DNA of 36,823 nucleotides from Phycisphaerae bacterium. Its GTDB lineage: Bacteria > Planctomycetota > Phycisphaerae > UBA1845. The DNA is taken from NCBI GenBank assembly GCA_029260075.1, contig JAJDDY010000059.1, positions 1-36,823 of the forward strand. The letters run 5' to 3'. Of the stretch, positions 9,464 to 27,152 are shown in pieces. The notes beneath the pieces were generated by a model. The model searched no databases, had not been told where the DNA came from, and saw nothing but the letters and a program-made list of their open reading frames with translations. The stretch's first letter is position 1. Every line of letters starts with the position of its first letter. Made by a program: the position numbers and the translations under genes.

Positions 9464-10039
9464 CTACGGAAGCACAGACAGGCAAATCGTGATCGCGTAG
9501 GTTGACTTGGCGCTTGGAGAGTCGGCGTCGTCGATGTAGCTTTGGAGATCGTCGAGCCGGCGGTTGAGTTCGACCAGCTTATTCCTTGTCAAACGAACAT
9601 TGACTTGTCGGATGCGCAGCTCGGATGCCTTGCCGGTTTTTGTCGTTGTTTCGCTCTTCAGTGCTGTCGCCAACGTTCGCTCTGCATATCGCAATAGGGA
9701 AGCAAACCCGCGGGTTACGGCATCTAGGAATCGTGGCGTACGCTGTGTCATGTCTAAACGTATGCGCTTCTCGGCCAACATGTAGATCGTTTCCGCGTGT
9801 CGCCCCGTGTCGCGCACGCCGTACCTGACCAAGACGCCTGCACGTTCCATCATGTTGACGTGGTAGTAGAGCGTGGCGGGTTGTCTGCTCATGCGCGATG
9901 CAAGATCGCGAATCGAGCATGGCCCCAGCATCTCCAGCGCCAGATGTATCTGGTGTCGAACGGGCGAGGCAATCGCCTTCATTTGTTCGACCGTGGATAT
10001 CCAGCCGTTCGCGTTTGGTTTTCTGCTCATGTTGACCAT
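9464..10039 (-). CDS. ArsR-like winged-helix transcriptional regulator
   Basis: A 191-residue protein is predicted with a start at 10039 (MVNMSRKPN) or 10030; the longer upstream frame runs through the divergent promoter and is unlikely. Residues ~20-85 form a winged helix (MKAIASPVRHQIHLAL, CSIRDLASRMSRQPATLYYH, MMERAGVLV, then the wing with GRHAETIYML), similar to the HTH_20/ArsR group that has TLYYHLnkLE-type recognition helices. The C-terminal half is charged and helical, without metal-binding cysteines, so it is not a classical metal sensor. It faces the PDZ serine hydrolase gene across a 148-base gap holding a phased direct repeat, suggesting it controls that gene. The signal is unknown. 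Confidence 0.8.
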   Translation of the reverse strand: MVNMSRKPNANGWISTVEQMKAIASPVRHQIHLALEMLGPCSIRDLASRMSRQPATLYYHVNMMERAGVLVRYGVRDTGRHAETIYMLAEKRIRLDMTQRTPRFLDAVTRGFASLLRYAERTLATALKSETTTKTGKASELRIRQVNVRLTRNKLVELNRRLDDLQSYIDDADSPSAKSTYAITICLSVLP

Positions 10040-10044
10040 TATTA

Positions 10045-10060
10045 GAAAATACTCGAAAAT
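10045..10060. promoter_or_regulatory. Possible operator: phased direct repeat in divergent promoter region
   Basis: gaaaat occurs at 10045-10050 and again at 10055-10060, exactly one helical turn apart, in the only AT-rich stretch between the divergent regulator and hydrolase genes. It begins five bases upstream of the regulator's ATG. This is a plausible autoregulatory site but has no direct support beyond spacing and position. Confidence 0.3.
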
Positions 10061-10187
10061 TACAACAGGATTGTCGATCGGGCGGCGTCTGTTCTCATGT
10101 GGTGTGAAAGCTCGCGCACCGGGATCGGTCGGGATGAGGCAGGCACGCCGCCCGGCGTTCGGAATACCTAACTTGGAAGCACAAGAA

Positions 10188-12054: not shown

Positions 12055-13200
12055 GTGAGATCAATGATCGAAAAGCCAAGAGCGCGGACAATGCATGCGG
12101 CCATGATCGCGATGGCCGGTTCATTCTTGATGATCGAATCCATCGTGATGGGCGGCGCGCCGGCGGCGACCTCCGATGCGACGCGCATCGTTCGCGGTTC
12201 GATCGGCAAGAAGCTAGACACGCATCTTAGCAAGATGGTGAAGAACGGATATTCCGGGGCGGTGATCGTCGCGAAAGGCGGCGAGATCATTCTCCGGAAA
12301 GGATACGGGTATGCAAACCGGGAGAAGGGACTGCGTGTGACGCCTGAAACCGTTTTCACGATCGGGTCGATCACCAAACAGTTTACCGGCGCCGCGATTG
12401 TGAAGCTCGAAATGCAAGGCAGGCTTCGCGTCACCGACACGATCGATCAATACTTTGCAGACGTACCGAAAGACAAGCGCGGTATCACTCTACATCAATT
12501 GCTCACGCACACCGCCGGCCTGCCCGACGCCCTCGGTCATGACTTCGATACGACGGCCACACGCGAAGCCTTCTTGAAACTTGCGATGGGCTCCAAGCTG
12601 CGCAGCAAGCCCGGGCGTAAGCACGCTTACTCCAACGTTGGATACAGCCTGCTCGGCATGATCGTCGAAACAGCATCGGGAATGGGGTACGAAGCATACC
12701 TTCGCAAACACCTTTTCGAGCCGGCGGGCATGATGCACACGGGCTACCTTCTCCCAAAGTTCGATCCGGACTCGCTCGCGGTCGGTTATCGCGGTGACAA
12801 GCCATGGGGCACGGTTCTCGGTCATCCGATGCTTAAGGACGGTCCCGGTTGGCACCTTCGCGCGAACGGAGGAATCCACTCTACGCTTGGCGATATGTAC
12901 AAATGGCACCTTGCGTTGGAAGGAACGAGAATCCTCTCGGACGAAGCCAAGAAAAAATACTTCGCGCCGCATGTCGATGAGGGTTTCGGCGACTCCTTCT
13001 ACGGATACGGGTGGGTGACGTTTACGACGCCGCGCGGCACCAAGCTGGTCGCCCACAACGGTGGGAACATGATTTTCTCGGCGGACTTCAGACGCTACGT
13101 CGACGAAGACATCGTGATGTTCCATGCGACGAACATCGCCAAATATGACCCGGACAATTTGAGCAATCGCCTGGCAAAGATCATCTTCGCCAAGCCTTGA
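12055..13200 (+). CDS. Secreted serine hydrolase (class C beta-lactamase/PBP fold)
   Basis: This 381-residue protein is a paralog of the preceding gene without the linker and the PDZ domain. The GTG at 12055 is preferred because gaagga (12044-12049) lies 5 bases upstream; the ATG at 12064 would be too far. A signal-like hydrophobic segment covers residues ~14-38. Catalytic motifs are Ser105-Ile-Thr-Lys108 (GSITKQF), Tyr192-Ser-Asn194 and His334-Asn-Gly-Gly. LLTHTAGLPD and FEPAGMMHTGY are typical of the EstB/LACTB-like group. It probably acts on an amide or ester in the envelope. It is followed by the best-preserved MITE-like repeat, so the transcript likely ends before or within that palindrome. 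Confidence 0.92.
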   Translation: MRSMIEKPRARTMHAAMIAMAGSFLMIESIVMGGAPAATSDATRIVRGSIGKKLDTHLSKMVKNGYSGAVIVAKGGEIILRKGYGYANREKGLRVTPETVFTIGSITKQFTGAAIVKLEMQGRLRVTDTIDQYFADVPKDKRGITLHQLLTHTAGLPDALGHDFDTTATREAFLKLAMGSKLRSKPGRKHAYSNVGYSLLGMIVETASGMGYEAYLRKHLFEPAGMMHTGYLLPKFDPDSLAVGYRGDKPWGTVLGHPMLKDGPGWHLRANGGIHSTLGDMYKWHLALEGTRILSDEAKKKYFAPHVDEGFGDSFYGYGWVTFTTPRGTKLVAHNGGNMIFSADFRRYVDEDIVMFHATNIAKYDPDNLSNRLAKIIFAKP

Positions 13201-13257: not shown

Positions 13258-13410
13258 TAGTGCTCCGTCACAGCTAGAATGACGGGTTCACCGAGCCGCG
13301 ACCGTAAGGAAGCGGACGTTCGAAAGCCGGTGGCGACAGCTTGAAAACACTCCCTCACGGTCGCGGCTCGGATCGGACCAACCCATCACTTGAGTCGTGA
13401 CAGAGCACTA
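13258..13410. repeat. MITE-like palindromic element, reference copy E
   Basis: The 153-bp element has long imperfect terminal inverted repeats. tagtgctccgtcac (13258-13271) pairs with gtgacagagcacta (13397-13410), and the inner ccgagccgcgaccgtaagga pairs with ccctcacggtcgcggctcgg. The termini begin with TA, as in IS630/Tc1-type insertions, though no target duplication can be proven. The outer right end provides the cta (TAG) stop codon of the minus-strand DUF362 gene. Related copies are at 591, 4314, 5659, 8812 and 36513. It has no coding capacity. Confidence 0.85.
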
Positions 13411-15093
13411 GAATCGTGAACCGGTAAAGGTTTGCTGCAAGGTGAACACATCCCTTAAGTCTATGTCGTCGTCGCGGTCGCCGTCGAATCTTCCGCACTC
13501 GTCCACACGGCGAACGTCCGGTCCTGAAAGACACATTGGCATGGACGCTTGGTCGACCAAATCGACGTCACCGTCTAGGTTGTAATCGCCGGCCCACACG
13601 TGAAGCCTGACGGTGTTGTAGTTGTTCGTGCAAGGCACACCGGCTGCGAGGAGTTCACTCATCGTTCGATCCAAGTATCGGCGAAACACACCCTGAGGAT
13701 TGTCCGGATTCTGTGTGTCATCGTAGTAGTCTACAGAGAACCCGTTGTCGATGATCTGCGGGATCATGACGTACTTGGTCGCCCATACGTCAAGCGCAAT
13801 CGGGTCAACACTGGCGAGCAACTGGTCACGACGAGACGCTTGCGCGTAGGAGGCCGAGGGACCCTGGCTCGGGCGTGCGAGAATCCATATACAGTCGAGA
13901 ATCGTCAGATCGGGACGTCGCACTTCGGCAAGAACCGACCCGAGTCCTCCGCGCGCGACGGCGTTGTGTGAATCCGTGGCCAGATTACGGGTCACAACGC
14001 CCATGTGATTCTTGACCGAAGCGGTAATTGAGTAGATGGAATGTGTTTTGAAGACCGGAACATTGATAACAACGAGCCTGTTCGCATTGTAAGACGCATC
14101 GCGCAGCGACCAAACCCCATACTTGTAGCTCACGTAGGTGCCGAACGGCGTACGAAATTTCGGGTACGATACGCGGATACCGGTCTCAGCGTCGGGCTGT
14201 TCCGTGACTACATAGCCGTCGGTGAGATCGCCGTTTGAATATTCGCCTACCGATGTCGTGTTGATCGCGTCCCACGCCCGCGTGGCCACGCTCCACCCCT
14301 CTAACGCGAAGTCATCGACGACGTCCTGAGTCGATTGGTTGGGATCTTCCGCATTGCTTTGCGGCCAGTTGAAGCTGCCACGTCCCTGCCCGTTGTCCGC
14401 GACGATGACCTCGCCGGCAAAACCATCGGGGTGGTCCACGATGCAGCGCAAGAGACCCCGCAACACGTCCGTATTGGTGCCACCGCGTTCCGGCCACTGG
14501 GCGTTGATCTTGATGAGCACGGTGTCGTCGATGTCGATCAGTCCGTCCGGTCCGGCCGTAACTGATTGCGCAGGGGACCGGTAGAGCTTCGCGCCGCGGG
14601 TGCCCATGAGCGTCAGCAGATCGTCTACGCCTCCGAACCGATCAATCGTTGGGCCGCGCGTTTGACTTACGAGGAAGATATCCGGCGACACGTCCGGCGG
14701 TGCCAGAAGGATGACATTGTCACTCGAGGTGCGACCGAGCATGGCGAACGACGCCAAAGCGGCGCAGGCAAGTACGGTCATTAGCGTCGTAACCGCCAAA
14801 CGGCGATGGCGTCGCAACCTGTGTTTACCCAAGAACGGAAGACTCGAAATGGCTGCGGCCACACCGAGAGACGAGGACGCGGCACCGAGCGCGGCCCGCT
14901 GGCATGGATAGGAAAGTCGGCTCGGTTTCTCGCCACTTCGCCAGATCAACCACACCAGAGCGAGAAGCCCACCCGACAGGATCGCGACCTGCCGGCCGAT
15001 CTTGCCGATGGGGTTACGGGCGTGCCGTCCGATAGAACGGCTTGCGGCTTGATGGTTGTGCGTCTCGCATCCTGTTTCGAATTGGCGTGTCAT
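13408..15093 (-). CDS. DUF362 domain protein with N-terminal membrane segments and C-terminal dockerin-like domain
   Basis: The 561-residue protein starts at ATG 15093, which has an aaagag ribosome-binding site; a GTG at 15126 is also possible. Two hydrophobic segments (AILSGGLLALVWLIW and the LMTVLACAALASFAML region) flank RLSYPCQRAA, a motif I associate with planctomycete DUF362 proteins. The DUF362 domain (about 130-490) contains VLIKINAQWP, VIVADNGQGRG, VINVPVFKTHS and SVKNHMGV. Its function is unsettled; some members carry Fe-S clusters. The last ~55 residues are two dockerin-like calcium loops (DYNLDGDVDLVD and DGDRDDDIDLRD). It is divergent from the heme operon at 15549. The stop codon comes from the MITE-like repeat, so the C-terminus may have been trimmed by its insertion. 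Confidence 0.87.
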   Translation of the reverse strand: MTRQFETGCETHNHQAASRSIGRHARNPIGKIGRQVAILSGGLLALVWLIWRSGEKPSRLSYPCQRAALGAASSSLGVAAAISSLPFLGKHRLRRHRRLAVTTLMTVLACAALASFAMLGRTSSDNVILLAPPDVSPDIFLVSQTRGPTIDRFGGVDDLLTLMGTRGAKLYRSPAQSVTAGPDGLIDIDDTVLIKINAQWPERGGTNTDVLRGLLRCIVDHPDGFAGEVIVADNGQGRGSFNWPQSNAEDPNQSTQDVVDDFALEGWSVATRAWDAINTTSVGEYSNGDLTDGYVVTEQPDAETGIRVSYPKFRTPFGTYVSYKYGVWSLRDASYNANRLVVINVPVFKTHSIYSITASVKNHMGVVTRNLATDSHNAVARGGLGSVLAEVRRPDLTILDCIWILARPSQGPSASYAQASRRDQLLASVDPIALDVWATKYVMIPQIIDNGFSVDYYDDTQNPDNPQGVFRRYLDRTMSELLAAGVPCTNNYNTVRLHVWAGDYNLDGDVDLVDQASMPMCLSGPDVRRVDECGRFDGDRDDDIDLRDVFTLQQTFTGSRF

Positions 15094-15548
15094 TACAGGC
15101 TCTTTCCAACTACGCATGGGTGACACGTGGAAAGACTTGCGCGTGACCCTCGCCGTGTAGGCTGATGGGACACTTCACGCGTTCAGGTGGAGCGGTACGG
15201 TCGTACAGCTTCAAACTAATCATATACAGGTTCCGGGCACAAACCAATAGATCAACTCGGCCCACCTATGCGCCGATAACGCATCGTCGATTTGACATCC
15301 GAAGCAAACGTCGCGTCGTGTCATGCGGGCGTATTCAACGGCTGCTGTCACGCAGATTGTCGGATTGACTTCATGCTCCTATGCCCTGGCGTCGTTTATG
15401 GCCTTGTTGTGCGGAGGGACAATATCGCGGTTGTCGCGGCTGAGTGATTTGCCCGATGTGGCCTGCATCGTGCAAGAGAATAGTTGCCGAAAGCTATCTG
15501 TCTGCGCTTCGTGGGGGCGCGAGGGACGTTCACTAGCGGACCGAGTGC
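15094..15548. other. Divergent intergenic region upstream of the heme operon
   Basis: About 455 bases separate the DUF362 gene from the first operon gene. I see no convincing gene or RNA. A TTGACA at 15292-15297 and a TTGACT at 15365-15370 lack good -10 partners at 16-18 bases. The operon promoter must lie here but cannot be pinpointed. Confidence 0.5.
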
Positions 15549-17309
15549 GTGTTCGTGCCCGAGACCAGTAGACCGCAGCGTCCGACAGAGTGTGGGATTG
15601 GCCTCCTGTTCATTCGCACGAGCGTTTATGACTTCGGTTTCGATCACAAAGGCAGAAGGGGGATTCTCGCCCTGTGCACAGTTCGACTCAAGTCGGTAGG
15701 TTCATTGTTCGTGGCGGCGGCGCTGCTGCATATGGGCTGGTTGGTGTTCGCTTCCGATTCGGCAGGGCGAAGCGACGGTGGACAGCCGGCGGTTTTCCCT
15801 GACGACTCGGACCGTCCAGATGCTCAGCGCGTCAGAGCGGGCCGTGTCATCCTCGATCGGACGATCGTCTTCGCTCAGCAGCCGATTCTGTCAACAGAGG
15901 TCGACGGTAGTATCGCGACGCGTCGCGGAGACATTCCGCGAGGCGGCCGGATCGTGTCGTGGAATCCGACATCGACGTCTCGACGTCCGACGAATCTGAC
16001 CGCGGGTTTCGACAGCGTCGGCGGCTTCGACATTTCCTTCGACGGCCAGCGCATACTCTTTGTCGGTACACGCGGTGATGATCCCGCGCCCGCCGTTTGG
16101 GAGATGGATGCTGATGGCTCGAGCGCGCGGCTGATCACTCGCGGCGTTGGGGCTTGTGTCGATGCGATCTACTTGTCTACGCTCTATCTGCTACTTGACG
16201 AAGAACCACGAAACCGTGTGGCGTTCCTTTGTCGGCAGGATGGATCGCAGGCTCCGGCCCTATACACTTGCCATCGGGATGGATCCGATCTACAGCAGAT
16301 TACGTTTGCACCCCGAGGTGTACGCGACCCATTGCTCCTAAGCGATGGCCGCCTTGTCTTTAGTATGTCCTCTCCTTCCGGAGCGAATGACGCGAAGAAT
16401 ACGTTAGCGAATGAGTCGCTCTTCACGATCTTTCCCGACGGCGCTGATTTATTCCCATTCGCCGGTGTTCATGAAGATCACGCGCGGCGAGGAATGGCCG
16501 CCGAAATCATGAACGGGCAAGTCATTTACGTGACGTCGAACGGATTGGATTCGTTGGGAGGCGGTTCGCTCGTCACCGTGTCTACGACACGGAGTCTTCG
16601 GTCCAGCCGTGTTTTGACCGAGGTGCGGACAGGGTTCTACCACTCCCCCGCAGCTCTGAGTGCGGCGGAGATTCTTGTTTCTTACCGCCACAAGCAAGCC
16701 AATTCCTATGGCGTGTATGCGTTCGATCCGCAGACAGCTCTCCAAAGGCTCATCTACGACAGCCCTGAGTGGCACGAACTTCATGCTAAGGTTCTGCGCC
16801 CGCGCCATGCGCCGGCCGGTCGATCGAGCGGCGTTCGGACGGACACGCGAACGGGGCAGCTGTTTTGTCTCGATGCCTATAGGGTTGGTCTTGATCGGCG
16901 CGATCCGGACATGGGGAAACGGATCAAGTGGGCACGCGTTGTTGCGATGCGCCCGAAGACCATGACCGACGCAGCCCGACGAGCCACGGGAATGAGAGCG
17001 GTTCCGGCATCGCACGAAACGGCGCGATCGCCTGTCGTTCTGGGCGAGGTTCCGGTGGAACCGGACGGCTCATTCTTTCTTCAAGTACCGGCCAAGACAC
17101 CCCTTCAGCTCGAAACGCTTGATGGCAAGGGTGGTTCCATCCTTGCGATGAACAGTTGGTTCTGGGTCATGCCCGGCGAGCGACGCGGATGTATTGGTTG
17201 TCACGAGGACCGTGAACTGACGCCGCCGAACCGATCCGTTTCGGCGTTCCGTCGTAGGCCTATGATCCCCAAACTGGGGGCCGCGCCCGTGGGAGGTGAC
17301 CGGCCATGA
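15549..17309 (+). CDS. HzsA-related c-type cytochrome (hydrazine synthase alpha-like, single heme)
   Basis: The frame gives up to 586 residues from GTG 15549. The real start may be later, because a signal peptide (SVGSLFVAAALLHMGWLVFA) lies near residues 50-69. Residues ~95-430 are a beta-propeller (FDISFDGQRILFVGTR, WEMDADGSSARLIT, YTCHRDGSDLQQIT). Residues ~490-550 resemble the middle domain of hydrazine synthase alpha (VPVEPDGSFFLQVPAKTP, then WVMPGERRGCIGCHEDREL). One heme site is Cys548-x-x-Cys551-His552. In anammox HzsA the active heme has, as I recall, a Tyr four residues after this His and a second heme domain follows. Here that position is Glu556 and the protein ends 34 residues after the motif. 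It overlaps the next gene by 4 bases (ATGA). It is exported; substrate unknown. Confidence 0.85.
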   Translation: MFVPETSRPQRPTECGIGLLFIRTSVYDFGFDHKGRRGILALCTVRLKSVGSLFVAAALLHMGWLVFASDSAGRSDGGQPAVFPDDSDRPDAQRVRAGRVILDRTIVFAQQPILSTEVDGSIATRRGDIPRGGRIVSWNPTSTSRRPTNLTAGFDSVGGFDISFDGQRILFVGTRGDDPAPAVWEMDADGSSARLITRGVGACVDAIYLSTLYLLLDEEPRNRVAFLCRQDGSQAPALYTCHRDGSDLQQITFAPRGVRDPLLLSDGRLVFSMSSPSGANDAKNTLANESLFTIFPDGADLFPFAGVHEDHARRGMAAEIMNGQVIYVTSNGLDSLGGGSLVTVSTTRSLRSSRVLTEVRTGFYHSPAALSAAEILVSYRHKQANSYGVYAFDPQTALQRLIYDSPEWHELHAKVLRPRHAPAGRSSGVRTDTRTGQLFCLDAYRVGLDRRDPDMGKRIKWARVVAMRPKTMTDAARRATGMRAVPASHETARSPVVLGEVPVEPDGSFFLQVPAKTPLQLETLDGKGGSILAMNSWFWVMPGERRGCIGCHEDRELTPPNRSVSAFRRRPMIPKLGAAPVGGDRP

Positions 17310-19723
17310 GCACAATGCAATTCCAGAGGCGCGACTCACCAATTCTGGCACTCTTGATCCTTATGGTCCAAGTGGGCTTGCCATCTCGTGTTGCCGGTGC
17401 GGAGCCTGACGGCGAGTTTGCCATATTCGTTGGGGCCAAGATCTGTCTCACGTGCCATGGACGCCACGGAACGGAAGATCGCTGTTTCGAAAAATCAGAA
17501 CCGAAGCACGCGCGCGCATTTGCGAAACTTGAAACGACTAACGCAGAGCACATCGCTGCACTCTCGGGAGTCCTCGGTTCACCGACGCAGAGTCGCTTAT
17601 GCCTGGGATGCCACTCGACAGGTGCCGATGAGGGGGCACGCTGGATGGCTGCGACGTTTCATACCGAGGATGGCGTACAGTGTGAGGCGTGTCATGGTGC
17701 GGGCGGTCGTCATGTCGATCTGTTCGCCGGCGGCGCCCGACCGGATTCGAGCGATTTGTTATACATCGAAGAAGGCGATCCCTGGCGATGCGCCGCTTGT
17801 CATCAGGAAAAACGTTCTCATCGAGATGTGGTCAAGAACGGGTTTGCGCTCACGAACGAAGACCGCCTATACAAGACGCCCGTCGATCTTTGCGTCTCGC
17901 AAGATGGTCGTCAACTGTACGTCGCCAACGAGCATGCGGATAGCGTGAGCGTCGTGGACGTGGAGTCGGGTCGCGTGATTGCGGAGATCCGTGTTGGTCG
18001 GCGTCCGCAAAGTGTAGTGCTGAGTCCCGACGGCTCCACGGTCTTCGTCACTTGCCGCATGAGCGACGAATTGTATGTCATTGATGTCGCGAAGCTGTCG
18101 ACCTCGTGGAAAACCGCCACCGGTCGCGATCCACACGGCATCGCTCTGGACCCGGCGGGTACGCACATCTTCGTCGCGAACACCGGCGAGGATACGGTGT
18201 CCGTGATTGATGTGACTGACCGGCGGGAAATCAAGCGGCTGGCGACGGGTCGCAGCCCGTGGGCTCTTGCGCTCAGTTCGGACGGATCGACGGTTTACGT
18301 TACGAGCGTGCGCCCGCGCGGTGGCAAGTTTCGCGATCCGCCCATCTCCGAGGTCGCCGTCATAGACTCGGCCCGCGCGATCGTCACCAAGTCCCTGGAT
18401 ATACCGGACGCCCACATGATGATGGGGATCGACGCGGTCTCGGTTCGGGAAGCGATGATCTTTACGCTGGTTCGCGCCAAGAATCTCGTGCCCCTTACGA
18501 GACTTCAACAGGGGTGGACCATGACCAACGGGATCGGTGTGTTGTGGGAAGACGGTCGCGTGGATCAGATTCTACTGGATCTTCCGAATGATGCCTTCGC
18601 CGACCCGATGGATGTAGCCGTGACGCCGAACGGGAAGCTGGCGCTCGTCACCGGTGGGGGTGTGGACGCGGTGTCCGTAGTCGACATAGCCAAACTGTTC
18701 GCGTTCGTCAGGTCCAAGTCCGACAACGTGCGGCAACATGTGCTTCCAAACCACCTCGGGTCCGCAGAAGAGTTTGTGACGCGGCGCCTACCCGTTGGCG
18801 CGAACCCGCGTGGTGTAGCGGTCGGTCCGAATGGACAGTACGCGTATTGTGTCAACGCGCTTGACGACAGCATCAGTGTGATCGATCTCGCGCAACTGAG
18901 TACGACACGCACCATCCTTCTCGGCGGACCGACGAGCCGCTCCGAGTTGCGCCGCGGTGAGCGACTCTTCCACAGCGCGGCCGGTACGTTCGGTCGACAA
19001 TTCTCATGCCGGAGTTGCCATCCCGACGGCCACATTGACGGTTTGACTTTCGACATCGAAGCCGATGGTCTTGGATTGCATCCGGTCGACAATCGTTCTC
19101 TTCGCGGTATCGCGGACACCATGCCCTTCAAGTGGACAGGCACGAACGCGTCGCTTTTTGATCAATGTGGGCCGCGGCTCGCCCGGTTCTTCACGCGACG
19201 CGCCCCTTTCTCGCCGGATGAGCTACTAGCGCTCGTCCGGTATATGCGTACGATCGAACGAACGCCGAACCGTTATCGTAAGCCTACGGGCTTGACGGTC
19301 GCGCAACGTCGTGGGAAGGCAATCTTCGAGCGGACAGTGGCCAATGATGGGCGTCCCATTCCGCTGACCGGTCAATGCAGGTTCTGCCATCGCGGGGCAC
19401 ACCGGACGAATGAAGCGAAGTTCAAGGTGGGTACGGCCATGTGGTACGACGGGGATATCAATGTTCCCAGCGACTTCCGTCGCGCCAATGAGTATGGCGA
19501 ACTTGGCACGTATGTGTTCATTGATGCCGGACTGCCCGGCGCCGAGTTCGACGTTCCACACCTTCAGAACCTCATGGAAAGTGCCCCGTTCTTACATAAC
19601 GGCGCCGCCGCCACACTTGAAGAAATCTGGACGCGTTTCAATATGGTCGATCGACATGGGCAAACCGGTGATCTTGTACGTCAGCAGCTTAACGATCTGA
19701 TATCCTATTTGAAGTCATTGTAA
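17306..19723 (+). CDS. Hexaheme fusion: tetraheme cytochrome + YVTN beta-propeller + MauG/CcpA-like diheme domain
   Basis: This 805-residue exported protein (signal peptide 1-31) has three parts. Residues ~40-175 form a cytochrome c554-like tetraheme region with CXXCH at 47, 99, 126 and 162. Residues ~185-545 are a YVTN beta-propeller (LYVANEHADSVSVVDVESG, VFVANTGEDTVSVIDV and further blades). Residues ~550-805 are a diheme peroxidase/MauG-like domain with CRSCH at 568 and CRFCH at 691, plus APFLHNGAAATLEEIWTRF, the usual C-terminal signature. In hydrazine synthase the beta subunit is a propeller and the gamma subunit a diheme CCP-like protein, fused in Scalindua; this protein adds an electron-carrying tetraheme module. 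The ATGA overlap with the HzsA-related gene implies translational coupling and probably a complex. The reaction is unknown. Confidence 0.88.
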   Translation: MSTMQFQRRDSPILALLILMVQVGLPSRVAGAEPDGEFAIFVGAKICLTCHGRHGTEDRCFEKSEPKHARAFAKLETTNAEHIAALSGVLGSPTQSRLCLGCHSTGADEGARWMAATFHTEDGVQCEACHGAGGRHVDLFAGGARPDSSDLLYIEEGDPWRCAACHQEKRSHRDVVKNGFALTNEDRLYKTPVDLCVSQDGRQLYVANEHADSVSVVDVESGRVIAEIRVGRRPQSVVLSPDGSTVFVTCRMSDELYVIDVAKLSTSWKTATGRDPHGIALDPAGTHIFVANTGEDTVSVIDVTDRREIKRLATGRSPWALALSSDGSTVYVTSVRPRGGKFRDPPISEVAVIDSARAIVTKSLDIPDAHMMMGIDAVSVREAMIFTLVRAKNLVPLTRLQQGWTMTNGIGVLWEDGRVDQILLDLPNDAFADPMDVAVTPNGKLALVTGGGVDAVSVVDIAKLFAFVRSKSDNVRQHVLPNHLGSAEEFVTRRLPVGANPRGVAVGPNGQYAYCVNALDDSISVIDLAQLSTTRTILLGGPTSRSELRRGERLFHSAAGTFGRQFSCRSCHPDGHIDGLTFDIEADGLGLHPVDNRSLRGIADTMPFKWTGTNASLFDQCGPRLARFFTRRAPFSPDELLALVRYMRTIERTPNRYRKPTGLTVAQRRGKAIFERTVANDGRPIPLTGQCRFCHRGAHRTNEAKFKVGTAMWYDGDINVPSDFRRANEYGELGTYVFIDAGLPGAEFDVPHLQNLMESAPFLHNGAAATLEEIWTRFNMVDRHGQTGDLVRQQLNDLISYLKSL

Positions 19724-19732
19724 GGTCACCTA

Positions 19733-22150
19733 ATGTCAACGCGCTGCTGTTCAAATCAGGAGGCCCGAACGGGAAACCAAAACCGGCGTGAGCGATCGAG
19801 CGGTCGAGCGCAGGCGATCGCGATATTCGGCAACGCCATGGAACATCGCGTCTTCTTTTTGAGTGTGATGGTCTTAGTGCTCGCGGCCGGGGAGAGCACG
19901 GCTCAGCACCCGAGCACACGGAGCACGCCGGGAGGTGCCTGGCGTACGTTGACCACGGACGACGGACTGCCCAGTAACCAGATTCGCTGCGTCGGCGTCT
20001 TTGCGGGCGAGACGTGGGTGGGGACGGATCGCGGGTTGGCATTGCTCCAGCATGGTCAATGGAAGAGCTGGACCCGAGAGAACGGACTACCGGGCCGAAC
20101 GATTGCGGCGCTTACTTTCGATCACGTGACATCGACCGTTTGGATGGGTACGTGGGGAGATGGCTTGATTCGCTTTTCCGGCGGTCGCTTCAAACGGTTC
20201 GATCAGATGAACAGCGGTCTAGCTGGTAACTTGGTCTTCGACGTGGCCTACATCGGCGGACGCGTGTGGGCTGCAACGAACGCCGGGTTGAGTGTTTACG
20301 ACCCCCGCGCGGATGAGTGGAGCCTACATTTTGCGCGTCGCGCCGACGCTCGCGTTCCGGTCATTACACGCTTGGCTATCGCCGGAAACGGGCTCTTCGC
20401 GTCGGCTTGGCATGGAGACCTGTGGAGCTTCGATGTGAAAGACCGTGAATGGCGAGCGGTCACAACGGAGGATGCGCCGGATTCGTCAGTCCGACGCCCA
20501 TCGCGCAGCGCTGTCCATGACCTTGTTGCCTTGTCGGCGAATTCCTCCAGCTTAATCGCGGCCTCGATGCAGCGCGTATTGTATCTTGACGCTACCGGCC
20601 AGAGCACAGGGGACGGTATCTTCGGTCATATTCACGGTTTCGTCTCGGCCATCGCACGTCCAAGCGAGTCCGAAACTTGGATCGGTTCGACGGATGGGTT
20701 GACGATACTCGGAGACCGATCGACGAACCCCGCGCCGGCTGCGTTGTCAAACCGTCCTGCCAACGGCAAAAGCCACGACAGTCTCGTGATTGAGAATGAC
20801 GTGCGAACGCCCAGTGCTTGGTTGACCCTCCGCGACAGTTACGTACGGTGCATAGCGATTCATGGCCGGCGGGCTTGGGTTGGCACCACGAACGGCCTGT
20901 ACTACGCGCCAGACCGAACTCGTCTGAACCGTTCGGGGCCCGCGGCGTTCGAAACCCGAAGCGAAGAATCTCGTGTCGACGACTTGACCCGTCTTCCGGC
21001 ATCGTCCGCGAGCGCGTCCGATGTGTTGGCCTCGGCAGATCGAAGCCGGTCCGCGCGCGTTGCAATTCTTGGGCCAAGAAATAGGACCGTACGTGTACCG
21101 GGAACATCAGTAGCGAACAGTTGGCGTTATCGTCGCGTCGATGAAGGCGCTGCGCAGCTTGCTGTCGAGCGGTTCAACGCGTCACGTCATGTACGCTCGG
21201 GTGTGGCGATCAGTCTCGCAACGGCTGAGCCCGGGTACAAGAACTACGGCTGGGTGACGCCAGAGGATGACTTTCCAGGGGCCATCGATGCCGGCGTGGT
21301 TGGTCTCGTCGCTGCGATTCGCGATCACGACGAGCGCGCCGATGCTGTCGCGTTTCGGAGCGAAATTCCGATCGTCAATCTTCCGTCCGTGTCGGGTGGC
21401 GAAGGGCAAGTGGCGGAGGTCAACCCGTGGGTCTTTGCGTGCAACGGAAACGAACCGCTTAGACACGGCGTGCTCATTGACTATCTCGTCAAAGAGAAGG
21501 GGCTGACCCGGTTTGCCATCTTGCGGACCTCAACCTCGGCACATCGGTTCCTGGCTGATTGGTGGCACGATCAGATTCGACGGCGCGGATGCACGCTGGT
21601 CGCCGACAAGACCTGGACGGGGGGAGCAGGTGCGTTGTCCGGCGTCATAGCCGATCTGGAAACGAGAGACTTTGACGTGCTTCTCACGTGGGCGGACGCA
21701 GATCAGTCGAACGCGATACTGGCCGCTATGCGGGAACGGAGCATGCAGCAGGTCGTGCTTGTCGGGTACGACGCCGTGACCGAGGGGGCGATCACTTCGG
21801 CGTTCGATAGCGTGGGCGACGTAGTTGCGCTGCGTCCGCAAGAAACAACCGAGAGGTTCCCGTATTCGCCGACTTTCGCGGCTGACTACGCGGCACGCAA
21901 TTTCGGCCGCGGATCAAGCACCTCGCCCAGTTGGACAGCCGTGCAGTCGTTTCACGCAGTGGACCATCTGTTGACGGCCGTGGATCGGGGCGGAGCGGAT
22001 CGCGACCAGGTACGTTGCGCCTTGGAGCAGATGGAACACAGCGCACTCGGCGAAGCACATTACGAGCGTTTGTACCCGCTGAAATCGATAACGATCGTCA
22101 GGCTCGTCGACGGGCGCTGGGTCATCCAGGCGATTGACGCATCGGACTGA
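19733..22150 (+). CDS. Fusion of two-component-type beta-propeller and type-1 periplasmic ligand-binding domain
   Basis: The frame encodes 805 residues from ATG 19733, nine bases after the previous stop and with aagg nearby. A signal peptide begins at Met36 (ATG 19838), so the start is uncertain. Residues ~65-430 are sensor-type propeller blades (TDDGLPSNQIRCV, TWVGTDRGLALL, VWMGTWGDGLIRF, VWAATNAGLSVYD, AWVGTTNGLYYA) as found in hybrid two-component sensors. Residues ~470-800 resemble branched-chain amino-acid-type (Peripla_BP_6) binding proteins (LAVERFN, SEIPIVNLPSVSG, FDVLLTWADADQSNAILAAMRE, VQSFHAVDHLLTAVDRGG). There is no kinase, membrane domain or heme. Operon position suggests it binds a substrate or signal for the heme proteins. 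The combination is unusual. Confidence 0.82.
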   Translation: MSTRCCSNQEARTGNQNRRERSSGRAQAIAIFGNAMEHRVFFLSVMVLVLAAGESTAQHPSTRSTPGGAWRTLTTDDGLPSNQIRCVGVFAGETWVGTDRGLALLQHGQWKSWTRENGLPGRTIAALTFDHVTSTVWMGTWGDGLIRFSGGRFKRFDQMNSGLAGNLVFDVAYIGGRVWAATNAGLSVYDPRADEWSLHFARRADARVPVITRLAIAGNGLFASAWHGDLWSFDVKDREWRAVTTEDAPDSSVRRPSRSAVHDLVALSANSSSLIAASMQRVLYLDATGQSTGDGIFGHIHGFVSAIARPSESETWIGSTDGLTILGDRSTNPAPAALSNRPANGKSHDSLVIENDVRTPSAWLTLRDSYVRCIAIHGRRAWVGTTNGLYYAPDRTRLNRSGPAAFETRSEESRVDDLTRLPASSASASDVLASADRSRSARVAILGPRNRTVRVPGTSVANSWRYRRVDEGAAQLAVERFNASRHVRSGVAISLATAEPGYKNYGWVTPEDDFPGAIDAGVVGLVAAIRDHDERADAVAFRSEIPIVNLPSVSGGEGQVAEVNPWVFACNGNEPLRHGVLIDYLVKEKGLTRFAILRTSTSAHRFLADWWHDQIRRRGCTLVADKTWTGGAGALSGVIADLETRDFDVLLTWADADQSNAILAAMRERSMQQVVLVGYDAVTEGAITSAFDSVGDVVALRPQETTERFPYSPTFAADYAARNFGRGSSTSPSWTAVQSFHAVDHLLTAVDRGGADRDQVRCALEQMEHSALGEAHYERLYPLKSITIVRLVDGRWVIQAIDASD

Positions 22151-22198: not shown

Positions 22199-24544
22199 CT
22201 AAGGTGGATTGAGTCCCGTCATGGATCGAATCGTTGTGTAGACCGGCTGACCATCGACACCAAACGGATCGACGAGAACGAGGCGGTCAATCACCGGCGA
22301 GTCGTGCGTCGCCGGACGGTGGCAATCGGTACACCCCTCCGCCCAATTCTCCGCGTATCCCCATGATTCCGTCGCCGGTAGCACATTATGGTCCAAACCG
22401 AAAACCTCGAAGGGGAAGACCGTAATCCCGGAGTCCTCCGCGTCGAACCATGCTACGCCGTCGGGCTCCTGGCCGGATTCGTACCAAACACGCTCGCCCT
22501 TGACTAGGACGGGGTTGTTGGCGATCCGCTGACCGTAGCCATCGTTACCCTGCAGCGCTTGCATGTACAACAAAATCTCCTCCGGTCGATTGACCTCGGG
22601 CTTGCCGTCGCCGTTATCGTCGGTGACGCCCACCAGCGGTGCGTTCCCAGTCACTTGCCGGATTCGCCAAAGTATGATCGGCTGAATCGTATCGTCGCTC
22701 ACGTCTTCCGGCGTATCGTTTTGGTCCCAGTCAGCCCAGTAGATTGCCACCTCCATTTTCTGCGGGAAGTAGCGCTCTAGACCGTCGCTGTCGACCTTCT
22801 TCCGTAACGCCGGAAACCAAATGCTCTTGTCCGCGCTTGCGGGGTTCAACGGGTCGGCCGAGAGGAGTTCATCGGTAAAGTAATGAATAGCCGTGCCCGT
22901 GACGGACCGGTCCGTTACGATGATGCCTCGCTCCAGCGCGTGGGGCACATGGCACGCTTGGCAGGAAAGAACGCGGAACGGGCCATTCCCAGTGGACTCG
23001 TCGCCCGCCAAGTGAATGGCCGCTTCACCGGGTACGTCTGGAGCATCTGGGTGTTGGAGTGGATTGACTTCTCCGCCGGGAAGATGCGTAAGATGGCATT
23101 CGCGACAGGATCGAAAGTCCACCCAATCGAGTTCGTTTCTGAATTGTGTGTAGGGAGAGTTCCCCTTGGCGAAGTTGTGATCCGGATTTCCCGGATGGCA
23201 GGCGATGCAGGCCGCCGCCCGTTCGTCGGGAATGTCGTTGCTCACATCGTCGTCGCTTCGGTTGGTGAACTTCTTGAAATGAACGTCGCGCTCGTCAAAC
23301 CAAACAGTCCCGCGCTTGTTTTGAAAACCGCCAGGTAGGTGGCACCCCCAGCATGTTCGATCGATCGGTGGACGCGCGAGAAAGTCACTCGGTAGGGCAA
23401 GTTCGTTCTTCGCCGCAACGATAAAATCTCCTTGCACAACGCCCACGGAGTAGTCAATCTGCAGTACCGGGGGATCTGCGTCCGTATCGAGCACGGAGAA
23501 CCACCCCTGCCCGGCTGTCCCCGCCGCAGCGAACGCGGCCACCGGCGATCCCGCAGCGTCGACCAGATTCGTGGTTGATTGCAGCACCGCCGCCCGCCAC
23601 TCACGGTGCATATCGGCTCCTCCCGTCCAGGTTCGGTCGGCTCGATGGCAGTGAAGGCACTCAGGTTCTGCAACCCCGGTTTCATCCCAAGGTGCGGGCT
23701 GTAGTGAACCGTCTGCGTCATCGATGAACGCATAGTCACCGTCCAGGACGACGTCTTCTTGTGTCTTGCCAAGAGCCTCATAACCGAATTGGCCGGTCGC
23801 AGCGTCCCACAGACGTTGTCCGTCACGATCAAACTCCATACTCCCGCCGCCGGCGTGGCATCCGCCGCAATTGGATGCAAAGTAGAATGCGGTCATGTCC
23901 ATGGATGATTCGTCGGCATTTGACTTGCCCGCAGTCTGACGATTCAGACCACCTCCCCCACCGGACCAGCGTCCGTACATCCCGCCGCCGCGCACCCACG
24001 AGCGCCCGTCTCCAAGAAAGTCGTCATGCATGACAATGTTGCCGGCTGCATCGGTGCGACCCTGTTGATGAATGAAGCCGTTGGCAATCCGATCGACGTC
24101 GTGGCAGCCACCGCACGTCTGTCGGCCGCTGTAGGGTGCCGTCGAGTCGGTGGTGAGAACACTTCCGTGAGCGTCCATCAGGGGGATAGGCAGATGCCCC
24201 AACTGCCTCTGGAATGAGGCGAAGTTCAGGAGATCGACGTCGAGGTCGCCGTCGGTGTCGAATACGGTTGTACACTCGGCAAACGCCGGTGTCCTTCCGG
24301 GCCCTGAAATAGATTGACAGATTGCCAGGTATGCATAGTCACGCAGATCGAGGAACCCGTTCCCATCGAAATCACTATCGCCTCCCGCGAACACTGCGGG
24401 CGGAATCCCCGTGAATACCAACAGCGTGAGCAAATACATTGCCATACTCAACGGCTTACCCTCTGACTTCGTTTTTTCACGGATCACTTTCGATTGCGCA
24501 ATCTGCACGTCGTGCCAAAACCGAGAAACGCGCGGCAACTTCAT
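22199..24544 (-). CDS. Secreted octaheme c-type cytochrome with N-terminal dockerin-like domain
   Basis: The 781-residue protein starts at ATG 24544, with a strong gggggagg site; a GTG at 24583 is less likely. After a long-n-region signal peptide (cut near residue 54, VFA-GG) come two dockerin-like loops (DSDFDGNGFLDLRDY, FDTDGDLDVDLLN). Eight CXXCH motifs follow, at about 144, 226, 296, 398, 446, 480, 528 and 738. The ~200-residue gap before the last heme holds a non-heme domain (MEVAIYWADWDQNDTPED). HNVLPATESWGYAENWAEGCTDCH is similar to C-termini of deltaproteobacterial multiheme reductases. Eight hemes recall HAO/HDH, nitrite and tetrathionate reductases, but I cannot assign it to one. 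It converges with the HzsA-like operon (48-base gap) and could exchange electrons with it. Confidence 0.88.
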   Translation of the reverse strand: MKLPRVSRFWHDVQIAQSKVIREKTKSEGKPLSMAMYLLTLLVFTGIPPAVFAGGDSDFDGNGFLDLRDYAYLAICQSISGPGRTPAFAECTTVFDTDGDLDVDLLNFASFQRQLGHLPIPLMDAHGSVLTTDSTAPYSGRQTCGGCHDVDRIANGFIHQQGRTDAAGNIVMHDDFLGDGRSWVRGGGMYGRWSGGGGGLNRQTAGKSNADESSMDMTAFYFASNCGGCHAGGGSMEFDRDGQRLWDAATGQFGYEALGKTQEDVVLDGDYAFIDDADGSLQPAPWDETGVAEPECLHCHRADRTWTGGADMHREWRAAVLQSTTNLVDAAGSPVAAFAAAGTAGQGWFSVLDTDADPPVLQIDYSVGVVQGDFIVAAKNELALPSDFLARPPIDRTCWGCHLPGGFQNKRGTVWFDERDVHFKKFTNRSDDDVSNDIPDERAAACIACHPGNPDHNFAKGNSPYTQFRNELDWVDFRSCRECHLTHLPGGEVNPLQHPDAPDVPGEAAIHLAGDESTGNGPFRVLSCQACHVPHALERGIIVTDRSVTGTAIHYFTDELLSADPLNPASADKSIWFPALRKKVDSDGLERYFPQKMEVAIYWADWDQNDTPEDVSDDTIQPIILWRIRQVTGNAPLVGVTDDNGDGKPEVNRPEEILLYMQALQGNDGYGQRIANNPVLVKGERVWYESGQEPDGVAWFDAEDSGITVFPFEVFGLDHNVLPATESWGYAENWAEGCTDCHRPATHDSPVIDRLVLVDPFGVDGQPVYTTIRSMTGLNPP

Positions 24545-24656
24545 GGTGACAACCTCCCCCAAAAAATGGGATCTGATGGACACGTTCGGGAATACAGAAA
24601 CTTCGGGTAATTAGAGCTCTGGAGCGCAGTCACGAGACGGTGTGACAGGGGATTGG

Positions 24657-27152
24657 TCAGTACGGTCCGGAGCAAAAACCCAGGAATTCTTGATAGTCCT
24701 GAAGATCGATATCGAAATCTTCATCTATGTCGGCTGGAAACAAGCACTGATCCGACGGCGTAAGGAATCCACCGGATTCCTTCGGTCCGCTATAACATCG
24801 CTGCAGCGCGGCGATATCGCTCAGGTCAATGTCGCCGTCATTGTCCATGTCGCCGAGCAAACATCCCTGCCGGCACGGAGGCGATTGGCATGCGGTGATT
24901 CCGCCCTGCTCGAGGCAAGTCTGACGCGGATAATCGGGAATGCAGATCGTACTCCAGCAACACAAGTCCAGTTGCGGGCAGCTGCACGAAATCCCCAGTG
25001 TTGTAGTCGGGCAGCGGTCACGGCAGTCGTCGACTCCGTCGCCGTCGGTGTCGCCCGGCGGAACGCAGTCGTCAGGTATCCCATTGCCGTCGCAGTCCGT
25101 TTCGCACCCGTCCGGAACCTGGTTGGCGTTACAGTCGGCGCACGCCAAGTCCCCCGGAAGGCAGCTCGCAATGACGCAATCGTCCGGGACGCCATTGCTG
25201 TCGCAGTCCGGTTCACATTCGTCCGGAATGCCGTTGTCGTTGCAATCCTGGCTGATACCGCACGGTTCGAAGCAGACGGTACCGTCGCAACGGAGGTCGC
25301 ATCGGTCGTCGTTGCCATTGTCGTTACAGTCAACAGGTGCGCCCCCGGGCGCGGTGCCACGCCACTGGATTACGCTCGGGAAGCCCGGTTTGAAGAGACC
25401 AATCGTTAGCGGTCGAACACCAGGCGCCTGGAAGCAATCGAACCCAAACGTGAAGGTTGTATCATAGCGCAAGGCGTTGGCGTTTGGACTTACGTCGTAC
25501 GTATCGGTGTACCACGTGATCGCGGAATCCGCGAAGCCAATCGACCAATCGGTGGTGTCCACGTCCTCGCCGCTGTGGTGATCGATGTCATGGAAGTAGA
25601 TATTGAACGGCTGGGCGTTCGGCGGAAGAGATACGCTAAACGATCGGGCGGCCCGGTCGGAATTGAGGTTCTGCAGGGCGTAGGTGTATCGCCAGACCCT
25701 TGGTTCCACTTCCGTAACCTTGTTGCCCATAAGGAACAGTCCCTCGGCGGGCACGCGGATATCCGTTTCAATTACTTCCGGGTCGTGGTCAGCCCAGGCG
25801 CGAACGGCCGCCTGTCCGCGCTGCGTCGGCCACTCGGAATGAATCCGAAACGAAAACGTCGTCGGGCTGGATGCGACAAGCTCGACACGGCGGTAGGACG
25901 CGTTGTTGTCGTGGTTTCCGGCTGCGGCGTCGTCGGCGTTAAGATAGAGCCCCTCCATGAAATACATCGCACTTGCGTTTCGGATCGGATCGAGGTCGGC
26001 ATCATGAACTTGCACACGCCGATCGAGTATGACATCGTCTGCCTGAAAACCATCCCAAGGGTACTCAAAATGGCCGGTGTGGGGATCGACGAGGGATCGG
26101 GGACTCATGTTCGACTGAATACCGTTCAGCGACGCACTGTACGGATCTGAGCAACCGACGCCCAGTTCGCTGCCGTTGGTGATGTCGGAGCACGGTGAAC
26201 AGTAGCTCTGCGAAACCGCGTAGAACCCGTGTTTGACCCAACTCATCCCAATCTGATCAAAACGCTCGTTCTTGAGGCGGTAGATGTTTTGAAGGATGAC
26301 CGGATGGTCATTGGAGTAGGAAACCCAACTCGTCCGCTCGGTGCCGATACTGCATGCGGTCGTTCCGATGGCGTACGACGTAAGATTGCCGACGTGCCCA
26401 TACCGTATGATCGATTGCAGGTCTGCGATGATGATATCGGATCCGAGGGAGGCAGCGGCTTCGCCCGCCTCAGCCGACGTAGTGAGACCACATCGGGTTT
26501 CTGTGCCGTAGCGGCGGTCCGTTTTGATCGGTTCCAACTTGGTGTCCGCATCGACGACGAGCCGTCCGATCGAAACGCCTGCCCATTCCGGCGCCCCGAC
26601 TGCTTCCGCCCAGGTCGAGACAAAACCGATGTCACCGGCGATTCGCAAAAATCCAGTCGCCGCCTCGAACTCATACGTAACCTCTGTCAGCTCAAGCGTC
26701 GGGTCGAGATCGTCCGCAGCCGTGAGTGTGCTCTCGATGTAGAGTCGTCCGTCCCTGTTCTGCGCGAGACGCAAATTGCCCAAGACGATTCTCGCTCCGG
26801 CACGGTCCCAGAGCAGTGCACCGCATGTTTCGATGAATCCGGAGCCGATTTGGTAGGCCGTACCGTTGCGAACGTGGACGACGAGTGTAGCTGAAGGCAG
26901 AATCGGAAACGTCACGGTTTCGACACCGGACGTCGTTTCCGTTGCGGAGAGATGGCCGCGCGGCACGAACCCGAGACCCGCTTCGCGAACAAGCGTCGGG
27001 TCCAACTTTAGCGTCACCACGCCGTCATGAATTGCAAACGATTCCCGCACGCCGTCATCGGTCGGTGGCAACTGACCGGAAGACGGAAGTGCCCACACCG
27101 AGCAGGCGACAAGGCATATTGCATTGCCCCCGGTAGAACGTAGCCGTCTCAT
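24657..27152 (-). CDS. Large secreted protein with DCNxNGxPDxC repeats and C-terminal dockerin-like domain
   Basis: The 831-residue exported protein has a signal peptide (1-26, VWALPSSGQ). A ~560-residue N-terminal region (about 35-600) has no fold I recognise but is beta-rich with scattered Cys. Calcium-binding thrombospondin-type-3-like repeats follow at ~615-720 (DCNDNGIPDECEPDCDSNG, DCNANQVPDGCETDC, DTDGDGVDDCRDRCP). The end is a dockerin-like pair (GDMDNDGDIDLSDIAALQRC and ADIDEDFDIDLQDYQEF). Such proteins are typical of Phycisphaerae secretomes and are probably anchored or assembled at the cell surface. The ATG at 27152 is three bases from a run of nine G on the coding strand, the only ribosome-binding element. 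It lies 112 bases upstream of the octaheme gene on the same strand, so co-transcription is possible. Confidence 0.85.
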   Translation of the reverse strand: MRRLRSTGGNAICLVACSVWALPSSGQLPPTDDGVRESFAIHDGVVTLKLDPTLVREAGLGFVPRGHLSATETTSGVETVTFPILPSATLVVHVRNGTAYQIGSGFIETCGALLWDRAGARIVLGNLRLAQNRDGRLYIESTLTAADDLDPTLELTEVTYEFEAATGFLRIAGDIGFVSTWAEAVGAPEWAGVSIGRLVVDADTKLEPIKTDRRYGTETRCGLTTSAEAGEAAASLGSDIIIADLQSIIRYGHVGNLTSYAIGTTACSIGTERTSWVSYSNDHPVILQNIYRLKNERFDQIGMSWVKHGFYAVSQSYCSPCSDITNGSELGVGCSDPYSASLNGIQSNMSPRSLVDPHTGHFEYPWDGFQADDVILDRRVQVHDADLDPIRNASAMYFMEGLYLNADDAAAGNHDNNASYRRVELVASSPTTFSFRIHSEWPTQRGQAAVRAWADHDPEVIETDIRVPAEGLFLMGNKVTEVEPRVWRYTYALQNLNSDRAARSFSVSLPPNAQPFNIYFHDIDHHSGEDVDTTDWSIGFADSAITWYTDTYDVSPNANALRYDTTFTFGFDCFQAPGVRPLTIGLFKPGFPSVIQWRGTAPGGAPVDCNDNGNDDRCDLRCDGTVCFEPCGISQDCNDNGIPDECEPDCDSNGVPDDCVIASCLPGDLACADCNANQVPDGCETDCDGNGIPDDCVPPGDTDGDGVDDCRDRCPTTTLGISCSCPQLDLCCWSTICIPDYPRQTCLEQGGITACQSPPCRQGCLLGDMDNDGDIDLSDIAALQRCYSGPKESGGFLTPSDQCLFPADIDEDFDIDLQDYQEFLGFCSGPY

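Follow-up and report, generated by a model that had tools for sequence, protein, structure and literature searches.

A hydrazine synthase-like operon in a UBA1845 planctomycete and its genomic association with a Rid/chorismatase-fold gene

Hydrazine synthase (HZS) is the key enzyme of anaerobic ammonium oxidation (anammox) and among the strangest enzymes of the nitrogen cycle; where it came from and which reaction it first catalyzed are still to be established. Here we ask whether a three-gene operon of a planctomycete that contains the HZS modules makes hydrazine and, if it does not, what it may do instead. The operon occupies positions 15549 to 22150 of a 36,823-nucleotide stretch of DNA, hereafter the window, which is one complete contig (JAJDDY010000059.1) of the 93 that make up the 4.92-Mb genome of a Phycisphaerae bacterium of UBA1845 (assembly GCA_029260075.1). 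In the accessible text of two earlier studies, Suarez et al. 2023 (PMC10732223) described an hzsA-like/hzsBC-like pair in seven UBA1845 metagenome-assembled genomes (MAGs) and three reference genomes and suggested anammox, and Hagglund et al. 2025 (PMC12758564) described four clades of HZS homologs, some with FG-GAP and ABC binding-protein genes, and rejected anammox. We consider it highly probable that the operon of the window is a homolog of HZS but is not HZS.

Operon Layout and Homology to Hydrazine Synthase

An initial annotation, made from the sequence alone, had described an HzsA-related gene coupled by ATGA to a gene with tetraheme, propeller, and diheme parts, followed by a gene for a propeller–ligand-binding fusion. 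The coordinates and the domain and structure matches given below confirm this layout:

15549-17309, + strand: gene 1, HzsA-like alpha subunit, 586 aa; the GTG start is uncertain
17306-19723, + strand: gene 2, fused c554-type tetraheme, HzsB-like propeller, and HzsC-like diheme parts, 805 aa
17444-17803, + strand: tetraheme, cytochrome c554-type region of gene 2, residues 47-166
18926-19720, + strand: HzsC-like diheme domain of gene 2, residues 541-805
19733-22150, + strand: gene 3, propeller-type N-terminal half fused to a Peripla_BP_6 substrate-binding domain, 805 aa

The ATGA overlap couples gene 1 to gene 2, and gene 3 begins nine bases after gene 2. The product of gene 1 starts with an export-type helix (model residues 49-68), followed by a propeller and the HZS_alpha middle domain (PF18582, 1.6e-23, 83.5 bits vs. 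a cut-off of 26.6), of which the genome has a single copy. A profile built from 32 relatives of gene 1 matched HzsA (5c2v_A) at 5.2e-91 over three stretches that include the middle domain, the next solved protein being TolB at 4.5e-8. For the AlphaFold model of gene 1 (mean predicted local distance difference test score 78), the best Foldseek match was 5c2v_D (3.4e-29, template modeling score 0.63), with TolB at 7.8e-10 and 0.38; superposition on 5c2v_D gave a Z score of 35.7 over 455 residues and the best TolB a Z score of 25.4 over 274. Because TolB, the next-best relative, scores far lower on all three measures, a chance match or a generic propeller is ruled out, and gene 1 is a true HzsA homolog. 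The operon was initially said to mimic HZS; the shared set of modules stands, and the profile and Z scores of HzsA make the relation one of homology, not mimicry. The alpha subunit is shortened, as had been noted: its single c-heme motif (CIGCH, residues 548-552) belongs to the middle domain, and the protein ends before the alpha-II heme domain, so that the second alpha heme is absent. Its score against the NCBIfam HZS alpha equivalog is 97.8, vs. a cut-off of 800.

Gene 2 has six CxxCH motifs, starting at residues 47, 99, 126, 162, 568, and 691; four lie in the c554-type N-terminal part (residues 47-131 match Cytochrome_C554, PF13435, at 5.8e-10) and, beyond the propeller, two more lie in the HzsC-like diheme part, bringing the total for genes 1 and 2 to seven c-heme motifs. 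The diheme part consists of the heme gamma-I motif (568-572), Trp610, Cys621 (equivalent to gamma Cys165), Leu625, and the heme gamma-II motif (691-695). Gene 2 matches the HZS beta-gamma fusion model at 4.9e-51 and scores 173.7 against the corresponding equivalog, vs. a cut-off of 1250. Its own sequence matched 5c2v_B at 2.7e-31 and 5c2v_C at 1.3e-21, and a profile of its family matched HzsB at 3.3e-59, HzsC at 6.3e-33, and cytochrome c554 (1bvb) at 7.5e-13. The same profile found the diheme peroxidases and enzymes 1iqc (2.2e-9) and 9qdt (2.9e-9), as well as 6e1c, named a di-heme enzyme (7.8e-9), and 3o5c (3.0e-8); against the MauG model TIGR03791 gene 2 scores 15.6 (cut-off 443.85) and against the curated MbnH model 28.7 (cut-off 362.85). 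By sequence, the surface-layer YVTN propeller 1l0q outscored HzsB (1.4e-75 by profile, 1.5e-45 by own sequence), owing to the mutual similarity of YVTN repeats; in the structure search HzsB (5c2v_B) came first, at 5.8e-30 vs. 1.1e-22 for 1l0q. The AlphaFold model of gene 2 is good in the propeller only, and it was left out of the active-site analysis because its heme parts are poor. A match to the clade III lactonase-type NosZ model (73.1 bits, cut-off 700) covered only the YVTN propeller and was dropped.

In gene 3, residues 473-769 match Peripla_BP_6 (7.4e-19), in agreement with the proposed ligand-binding fusion; the propeller matches of the N-terminal half are weak and below cut-off (Reg_prop, 17.2 vs. 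20.4 bits; PorZ, 32.3 vs. 260). The true start of the gene may be an internal ATG ahead of a hydrophobic segment. A profile of 11 binding domains, seven from class A and four from class B loci as defined below, was nearest to binders of branched-chain amino acids and amides (7.1e-33).

Conservation, Operon Classes, and Phylogeny

We searched for gene 2 in 100 relatives, from which 40 loci were taken, and scanned the contigs of GTDB species. A single-sequence scan of these contigs gave no match; a profile scan did find 173 relatives, and the best 80 of them, partly on the same contigs as the 40, form the set of named loci. We distinguished four classes, with the Pfam names of neighbors taken from representatives. 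Class A, the type of the window, has one tetraheme, and nothing intervenes between its alpha and beta-gamma genes. In class B there are two tetrahemes, and an FG-GAP/ASPIC (CRTAC1-type) gene separates alpha from beta-gamma, the exceptions being L175, with one tetraheme, and L124 and L190, which are interrupted by contig ends. Class C is without the tetraheme and has a CRTAC1-type gene in the same position, and class D is more distant and without gene 3. The host MAGs of the named loci belong to Planctomycetota, Acidobacteriota, Omnitrophota, Gemmatimonadales, Neomarinimicrobiota, Verrucomicrobia, and Calditrichia. Carbon–nitrogen hydrolase (nitrilase-type) genes were seen near five class B operons (L123, L139, L141, L167, and L170).

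In all 15 class A loci other than the window, the alpha gene lies directly upstream of gene 2 and the propeller part of gene 3 downstream; the binding domain was found in 13, L118 stopping at a contig end and L114 being without one in 9 kb. With these frequencies the three-gene set is not due to chance, and the neighborhood survey suggested by the initial annotation thus finds genes 1 and 2 consistently together. No FG-GAP/CRTAC1 match was found upstream of beta-gamma in the window or in any of the 15. Among the other 65 named loci the alpha gene was present in 51, and all 14 misses have less than 4.6 kb of upstream sequence. Eight relatives hold two operon classes (A and C in G402, G393, G410, G421, G431, and G406; A and B in G438 and G422); therefore, the classes do not simply replace each other.

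The stretch from heme gamma-II to the next motif is long both in class A (52-55 residues in 15 of 16; about residues 716-746 in gene 2) and in anammox HZS (65 residues in 7/7), and spans 24-26 residues in the measurable sequences of classes B, C, and D (1/16 A, 3/66 B, and 1/8 C unmeasured). This suggested a closer kinship of class A to anammox HZS. When more sequences were aligned, the HZS stretch ceased to match that of class A, and the kinship is ruled out by phylogeny. In a quick maximum-likelihood tree of 61 rows (16 A, 8 C, 7 D, 7 anammox HZS, and 23 of the 66 B) with class D as the outgroup, class A formed one clade (SH-like approximate likelihood ratio support 100), A+B and A+B+C were each supported at 99, and HZS fell outside; the program flagged long branches for HZS and class D, and class B was not one clade. 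An approximately unbiased (AU) test on 50 rows (12 of the 23 B) rejected the tree uniting class A with HZS (p-AU 0.0034).

Residues and Genes Expected for Hydrazine Synthesis

Residue roles were taken from the accessible text of PMC12607021 and PMC12758564. In the former, heme gamma-I of HZS is the proposed NO-reducing site and Asp168 is tied to proton supply there; the role of the Trp between the heme motifs in peroxidases and MauG follows the latter. Of the anammox reference loci, three (L101, L102, and L103) have proteins that pass the curated HZS models. The alpha-I motif is C-x-x-C-H-x-G-S-Y in the three anammox sequences aligned, and Ser590-Tyr591 is gapped in each of the 14 alphas from outside anammox in the alignment (6 A, 3 B, 3 C, and 2 D, the window included); the class A alphas are also without the alpha-II heme domain. 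The gamma alignment covered 104 sequences (16 A, 66 B, 8 C, 7 D, and 7 HZS). Cys165 is present in 16/16 A, 66/66 B, 8/8 C, and 7/7 HZS sequences and in 0/7 D, and Arg167 is retained in 96 of the 97 non-HZS sequences. Position 144 is His in 7/7 HZS, Trp in 90/90 of classes A to C, and Trp in 0/7 D; Asp168 is found in 7/7 HZS and 0/97 others. In the window, His144 is replaced by Trp610 and Asp168 by Leu625, and the third heme cysteine, Cys621, aligns with that of HZS and would form a putative heme bond.

Like anammox HZS (Kuenenia, 5c2v), the operon thus encodes alpha, beta, and gamma homologs together, with the same domain set and folds, the gamma-I CxxCH, and equivalents of Cys165, Gly166, and Arg167; unlike it, the window is without Tyr591, His144, Asp168, the alpha-II heme, and the insert after the alpha-I motif. 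Judged by the alignments, the unusual attachment site of the catalytic heme gamma-I is common to both, whereas the proposed proton donor and the proposed N–N coupling site are not. With a Trp lying between its two heme motifs, the C-terminal diheme unit resembles diheme cytochrome c peroxidase, MauG, and MbnH, from which gene 2 differs in its fusion to a propeller and tetraheme, its extra heme cysteine, and its scores below the MauG and MbnH cut-offs.

Searches of the window's genome covered six families (PF18582, PF13447, PF02335, TIGR01580, PF00115, and PF01042). They returned one HAO-family octaheme gene, with 69.9 bits on the hydrazine dehydrogenase model vs. a cut-off of 900; NarG above cut-off; two COX1-family genes; and a cytochrome c552-family match at cut-off (PF02335, 24.2 vs. 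24.1 bits). The initial remark that no anammox genes were in view is borne out by the residues and by these few genome checks, in which nirK, nirS, and norB were not searched for as such.

Association with a Rid/Chorismatase-Fold Gene

Clustering of the neighbors in the 80 named loci brought up a recurring Rid/YjgF-fold gene, encoded in forms of ~160 aa and ~380-450 aa. The window has a short form:

27752-28216, + strand: Rid/YjgF-fold protein, 154 aa (PF01042, 80.5 bits vs. a cut-off of 27.3)

It scores 66.1 against TIGR00004 (cut-off 106.25) and 40.3 against the FkbO/Hyg5 chorismatase model TIGR04444 (cut-off 325), and it is the only one of three PF01042 genes in its genome to match the Rid subfamily at 1e-20. 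Of three long forms scanned, the FkbO/Hyg5 chorismatase model was the best NCBIfam model in two and the third favored a Rid model; their TIGR04444 scores of 56.6 (L138), 66.2 (L161), and 37.4 (L125) are to be read against the same cut-off of 325. By tblastn, with queries that came partly from the loci searched, the gene was found in 26 of the 80 named loci (6/15 class A and 20/65 others) in addition to the window. In class C it was found in 7/8 loci, after the propeller gene and, in the 6 where this is covered, ahead of the binding-protein gene; it was found in 1/8 class D and 0/11 anammox loci. The class D locus L096 has a long form, chorismatase-like, immediately after its beta-gamma gene. 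Genes for 3-deoxy-D-arabino-heptulosonate 7-phosphate (DAHP) synthase (at least 250 bits) occur in 4/8 class C loci and in 5/80 named loci, including two that were query sources, and such neighbors suggest a dedicated chorismate supply. The HZS-like operons with a DAHP synthase gene nearby are L087, L088, L090, L092, L132, L147, L157, L177, and L187.

Presence of the Rid gene followed that of the operon across genomes. Among the 100 relatives, with thresholds of E <= 1e-20 for the window's Rid protein and E < 1e-100 for gene 2, Rid was found in 22 of the 25 genomes with a class A to C gene 2 and in 2 of the 75 others (Fisher's exact test, 8e-17); one of these two carries a class D gene 2. Counted by genus, Rid was present in 17/20 with the operon and 2/54 without (8e-12), and in all four genera that are mixed for the operon it was present with it and absent without it. 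The Rid gene lies within 10 kb of the operon in 13 of the 22 genomes, on the same contig at a distance of at least 15 kb in three, and on another contig in six, so the association is not one of adjacency alone. When the survey was widened to 392 genomes drawn from the phylum, with the window's own left out and thresholds of E <= 1e-12 for Rid and E <= 1e-40 for gene 2, Rid was found in 22 of 43 genomes with a gene 2 match (one of them anammox HZS) and in 23 of 348 without (2e-12); in 16 of the 43 the two genes shared a contig and a strand and were no more than 6.2 kb apart. For the closest gene 2 matches, by a limit chosen after seeing the list, the numbers were 15/16 vs. 30/375.

The link between Rid and HZS-like operons is apparently new. 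It is not mentioned for HZS homologs in the accessible text of PMC10732223 or PMC12758564, and the main text of the latter, to which the search was confined, contains none of the terms chorismat, RidA, or UBA1845. A literature search pairing chorismatase with hydrazine synthase found nothing (RidA with hydrazine synthase was not searched, and bioRxiv lay outside), and a word search of the Rid-family paper PMC4433059 (main text) found neither hydrazine nor heme.

Relation to Published Operons

The operon is a compact variant of the hzsA-like/hzsBC-like type already published. As in the UBA1845 pair of Suarez et al., described in the accessible text of PMC10732223, the hzsA-like gene of the window lies immediately upstream of a fused hzsBC-like gene, in the same family, and six of their seven MAGs (OFTM5, 174, 285, 286, 321, and 371) are among our class A loci. 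The window operon may itself be among those published, since OFTM250 was unmatched here and records of the window's own genome may have been left out. The tetraheme, the propeller–binding fusion, the residue test, and the Rid link are not reported in that text and, contrary to its proposal of anammox, the residues of the window do not support anammox. PMC10732223 was the sole paper found in our literature search for hzs-like genes, with supplements and bioRxiv outside it.

As described in the accessible text of PMC12758564, the clades of Hagglund et al. (I to IV) share with the window the co-location of alpha with a fused beta-gamma, and clades I to III share Trp in place of His144 and the gap at Tyr591. 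Clade I also shares the c554 domains and the third Cys, with two c554 modules vs. one in class A, and Opitutus terrae has four extra motifs, as does the window; clade III has two genes for ABC substrate-binding proteins downstream, comparable to gene 3. Unlike clades I to III, class A is without an FG-GAP/CRTAC1 gene between alpha and beta-gamma and, unlike the clades in general, it is without the alpha-II heme and has a fused propeller–binding protein. From the alignments, the residue pattern of class A agrees with that of the published clades and extends it to a family proposed as anammox; the class A residues would keep surveys based on hzsA or hzsB from miscounting UBA1845 as anammox. As far as our searches went, the class A architecture with its fused gene 3, the class A residue test, and the Rid link are added here.

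Possible Function

The initial annotation proposed a related periplasmic heme enzyme without assigning a reaction, which matches the evidence. Taken as a whole, our best explanation, to which we give an even chance of being right, is an HZS-superfamily periplasmic complex that makes no hydrazine and carries out a peroxidase/MauG-type oxidation, served by a binding protein and a Rid partner. For the pathway, an organic-nitrogen or aromatic setting is the best reading; the reaction we infer, in which a small organic compound (an amine or an aromatic) would be oxidized by peroxide- or MauG-type chemistry and no N–N bond would be formed, is put forward tentatively and is somewhat less probable than the opposite. 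Genes 1 and 2 would form a secreted HZS-like seven-heme assembly, in which electrons could be exchanged between a periplasmic carrier and the catalytic heme gamma-I by way of the c554-like tetraheme and heme gamma-II. With Trp in place of the HZS His144 and the HZS-type third cysteine kept, gamma-I would be a peroxidase/MauG-like site acting on a small organic molecule, and the protein of gene 3 may bind this compound or its product. The Rid/chorismatase-fold enzyme, in which no export signal was seen by eye, is probably a soluble partner and would make or clear another intermediate of the same pathway. The DAHP synthase and the chorismatase-like relatives would point to a chorismate-derived compound, Rid chemistry alone to an imine. 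The Rid/chorismatase-fold link is the first concrete handle known to us on the role of the wider family.

Several observations weigh against this explanation. The organic-substrate reading rests on genetic association, not on chemistry, and the diheme domain was modeled with low confidence, the heme gamma-I pocket being assigned by sequence only. The window places the Rid gene 8 kb from gene 2, on its downstream side and behind two genes on the opposite strand, and the short Rid form may be a general-use imine deaminase rather than chorismatase-like. By tblastn the gene was near none of nine class B loci from the relatives, and at the threshold used it was absent from 3 of the 25 genomes with close gene 2 homologs. 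With Rid at 1e-20 the association in the wider phylum falls to 9/43 vs. 3/348 (2e-7). The Fisher tests take genomes or genera as independent and correct for relatedness no further than the genus count, and incomplete MAGs could lose the operon and Rid together. The window's own binding domain, searched alone, had no PDB match at 0.01, and NarG and the HAO-family gene of the genome would also suit a nitrogen-oxide substrate.

The last point leads to the main rival, a nitrogen-oxide enzyme without N–N coupling, in which gamma-I, fed by the c554-like tetraheme, would reduce NO, yielding hydroxylamine or N2O, in the service of detoxification or respiration. The NO-reducing role proposed for gamma-I of HZS in the accessible text of PMC12607021, the retained third cysteine, the c554 module, and a NarG above cut-off all speak for it; yet the Asp168 that the same text ties to proton supply is replaced in 97/97 non-anammox sequences, His144 is replaced by Trp, and the links to Rid, binding-protein, and DAHP synthase genes would not be expected, so that we rate it as fairly unlikely. 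An electron conduit or sensor, whose tetraheme and propellers would carry electrons to surface cytochromes with little catalysis of their own, accords with the multiple redox modules and with the multiheme and dockerin-bearing neighbors of the window and some class A loci. It appears improbable: key residues of the diheme domain are invariant across classes A to C, the multiheme neighbor is not general (the window and 3 of the 15 other class A loci), and the 17 class B and C loci surveyed for it had no match to the DUF362 or multiheme neighbors, while class C keeps Rid and the binding proteins.

That the operon is a divergent but genuine HZS and its hosts are unrecognized anammox bacteria, as Suarez et al. 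2023 propose, is highly improbable. Every type of HZS module is present and adjacent, gamma Cys165 is kept, class A shares with HZS the long stretch after gamma-II, and the genome has an HAO-family octaheme gene and NarG. Against these stand the gap at alpha Tyr591, the absent alpha-II heme domain, and the replaced gamma His144 and Asp168; both subunits score far under the curated cut-offs that reference anammox proteins pass, the HAO-family protein stays below the cut-off of the hydrazine dehydrogenase model, and a clade with HZS was rejected by the AU test.

Beyond the function of the operon itself, it is possible, if rather doubtful, that HZS descends from a widespread heme complex of the periplasm, one that originally processed an organic compound derived from chorismate or an imine and had as partners an enzyme of the Rid/chorismatase fold and a binding protein of its own; the operon of the window would be a compact surviving form. 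If so, the original substrate of the HZS fold could be found by studying the pathway of this operon.

Other Genes of the Window

The operon is flanked by two genes on the opposite strand that we regard as accessory at most:

13408-15126, - strand: DUF362 protein (domain match), divergent from the operon, with a dockerin-like C-terminus
22199-24583, - strand: multiheme protein with an MtrC/MtrF-like domain match, convergent with gene 3

The DUF362 neighbor was also found near 5 of the 15 other class A loci. Besides the multiheme protein, the region 22199-27152 (- strand) encodes an uncharacterized dockerin-like protein, and similar genes flank several other class A loci. Elsewhere in the window, the gene at 2708-4297 (+ strand) fuses an AlkZ-like DNA glycosylase domain to a GIY-YIG nuclease domain, and that at 9873-11969 (+ strand) encodes a protein in which a PDZ domain comes after a serine beta-lactamase-family domain, adjoined by a second beta-lactamase-family gene at 12055-13200.

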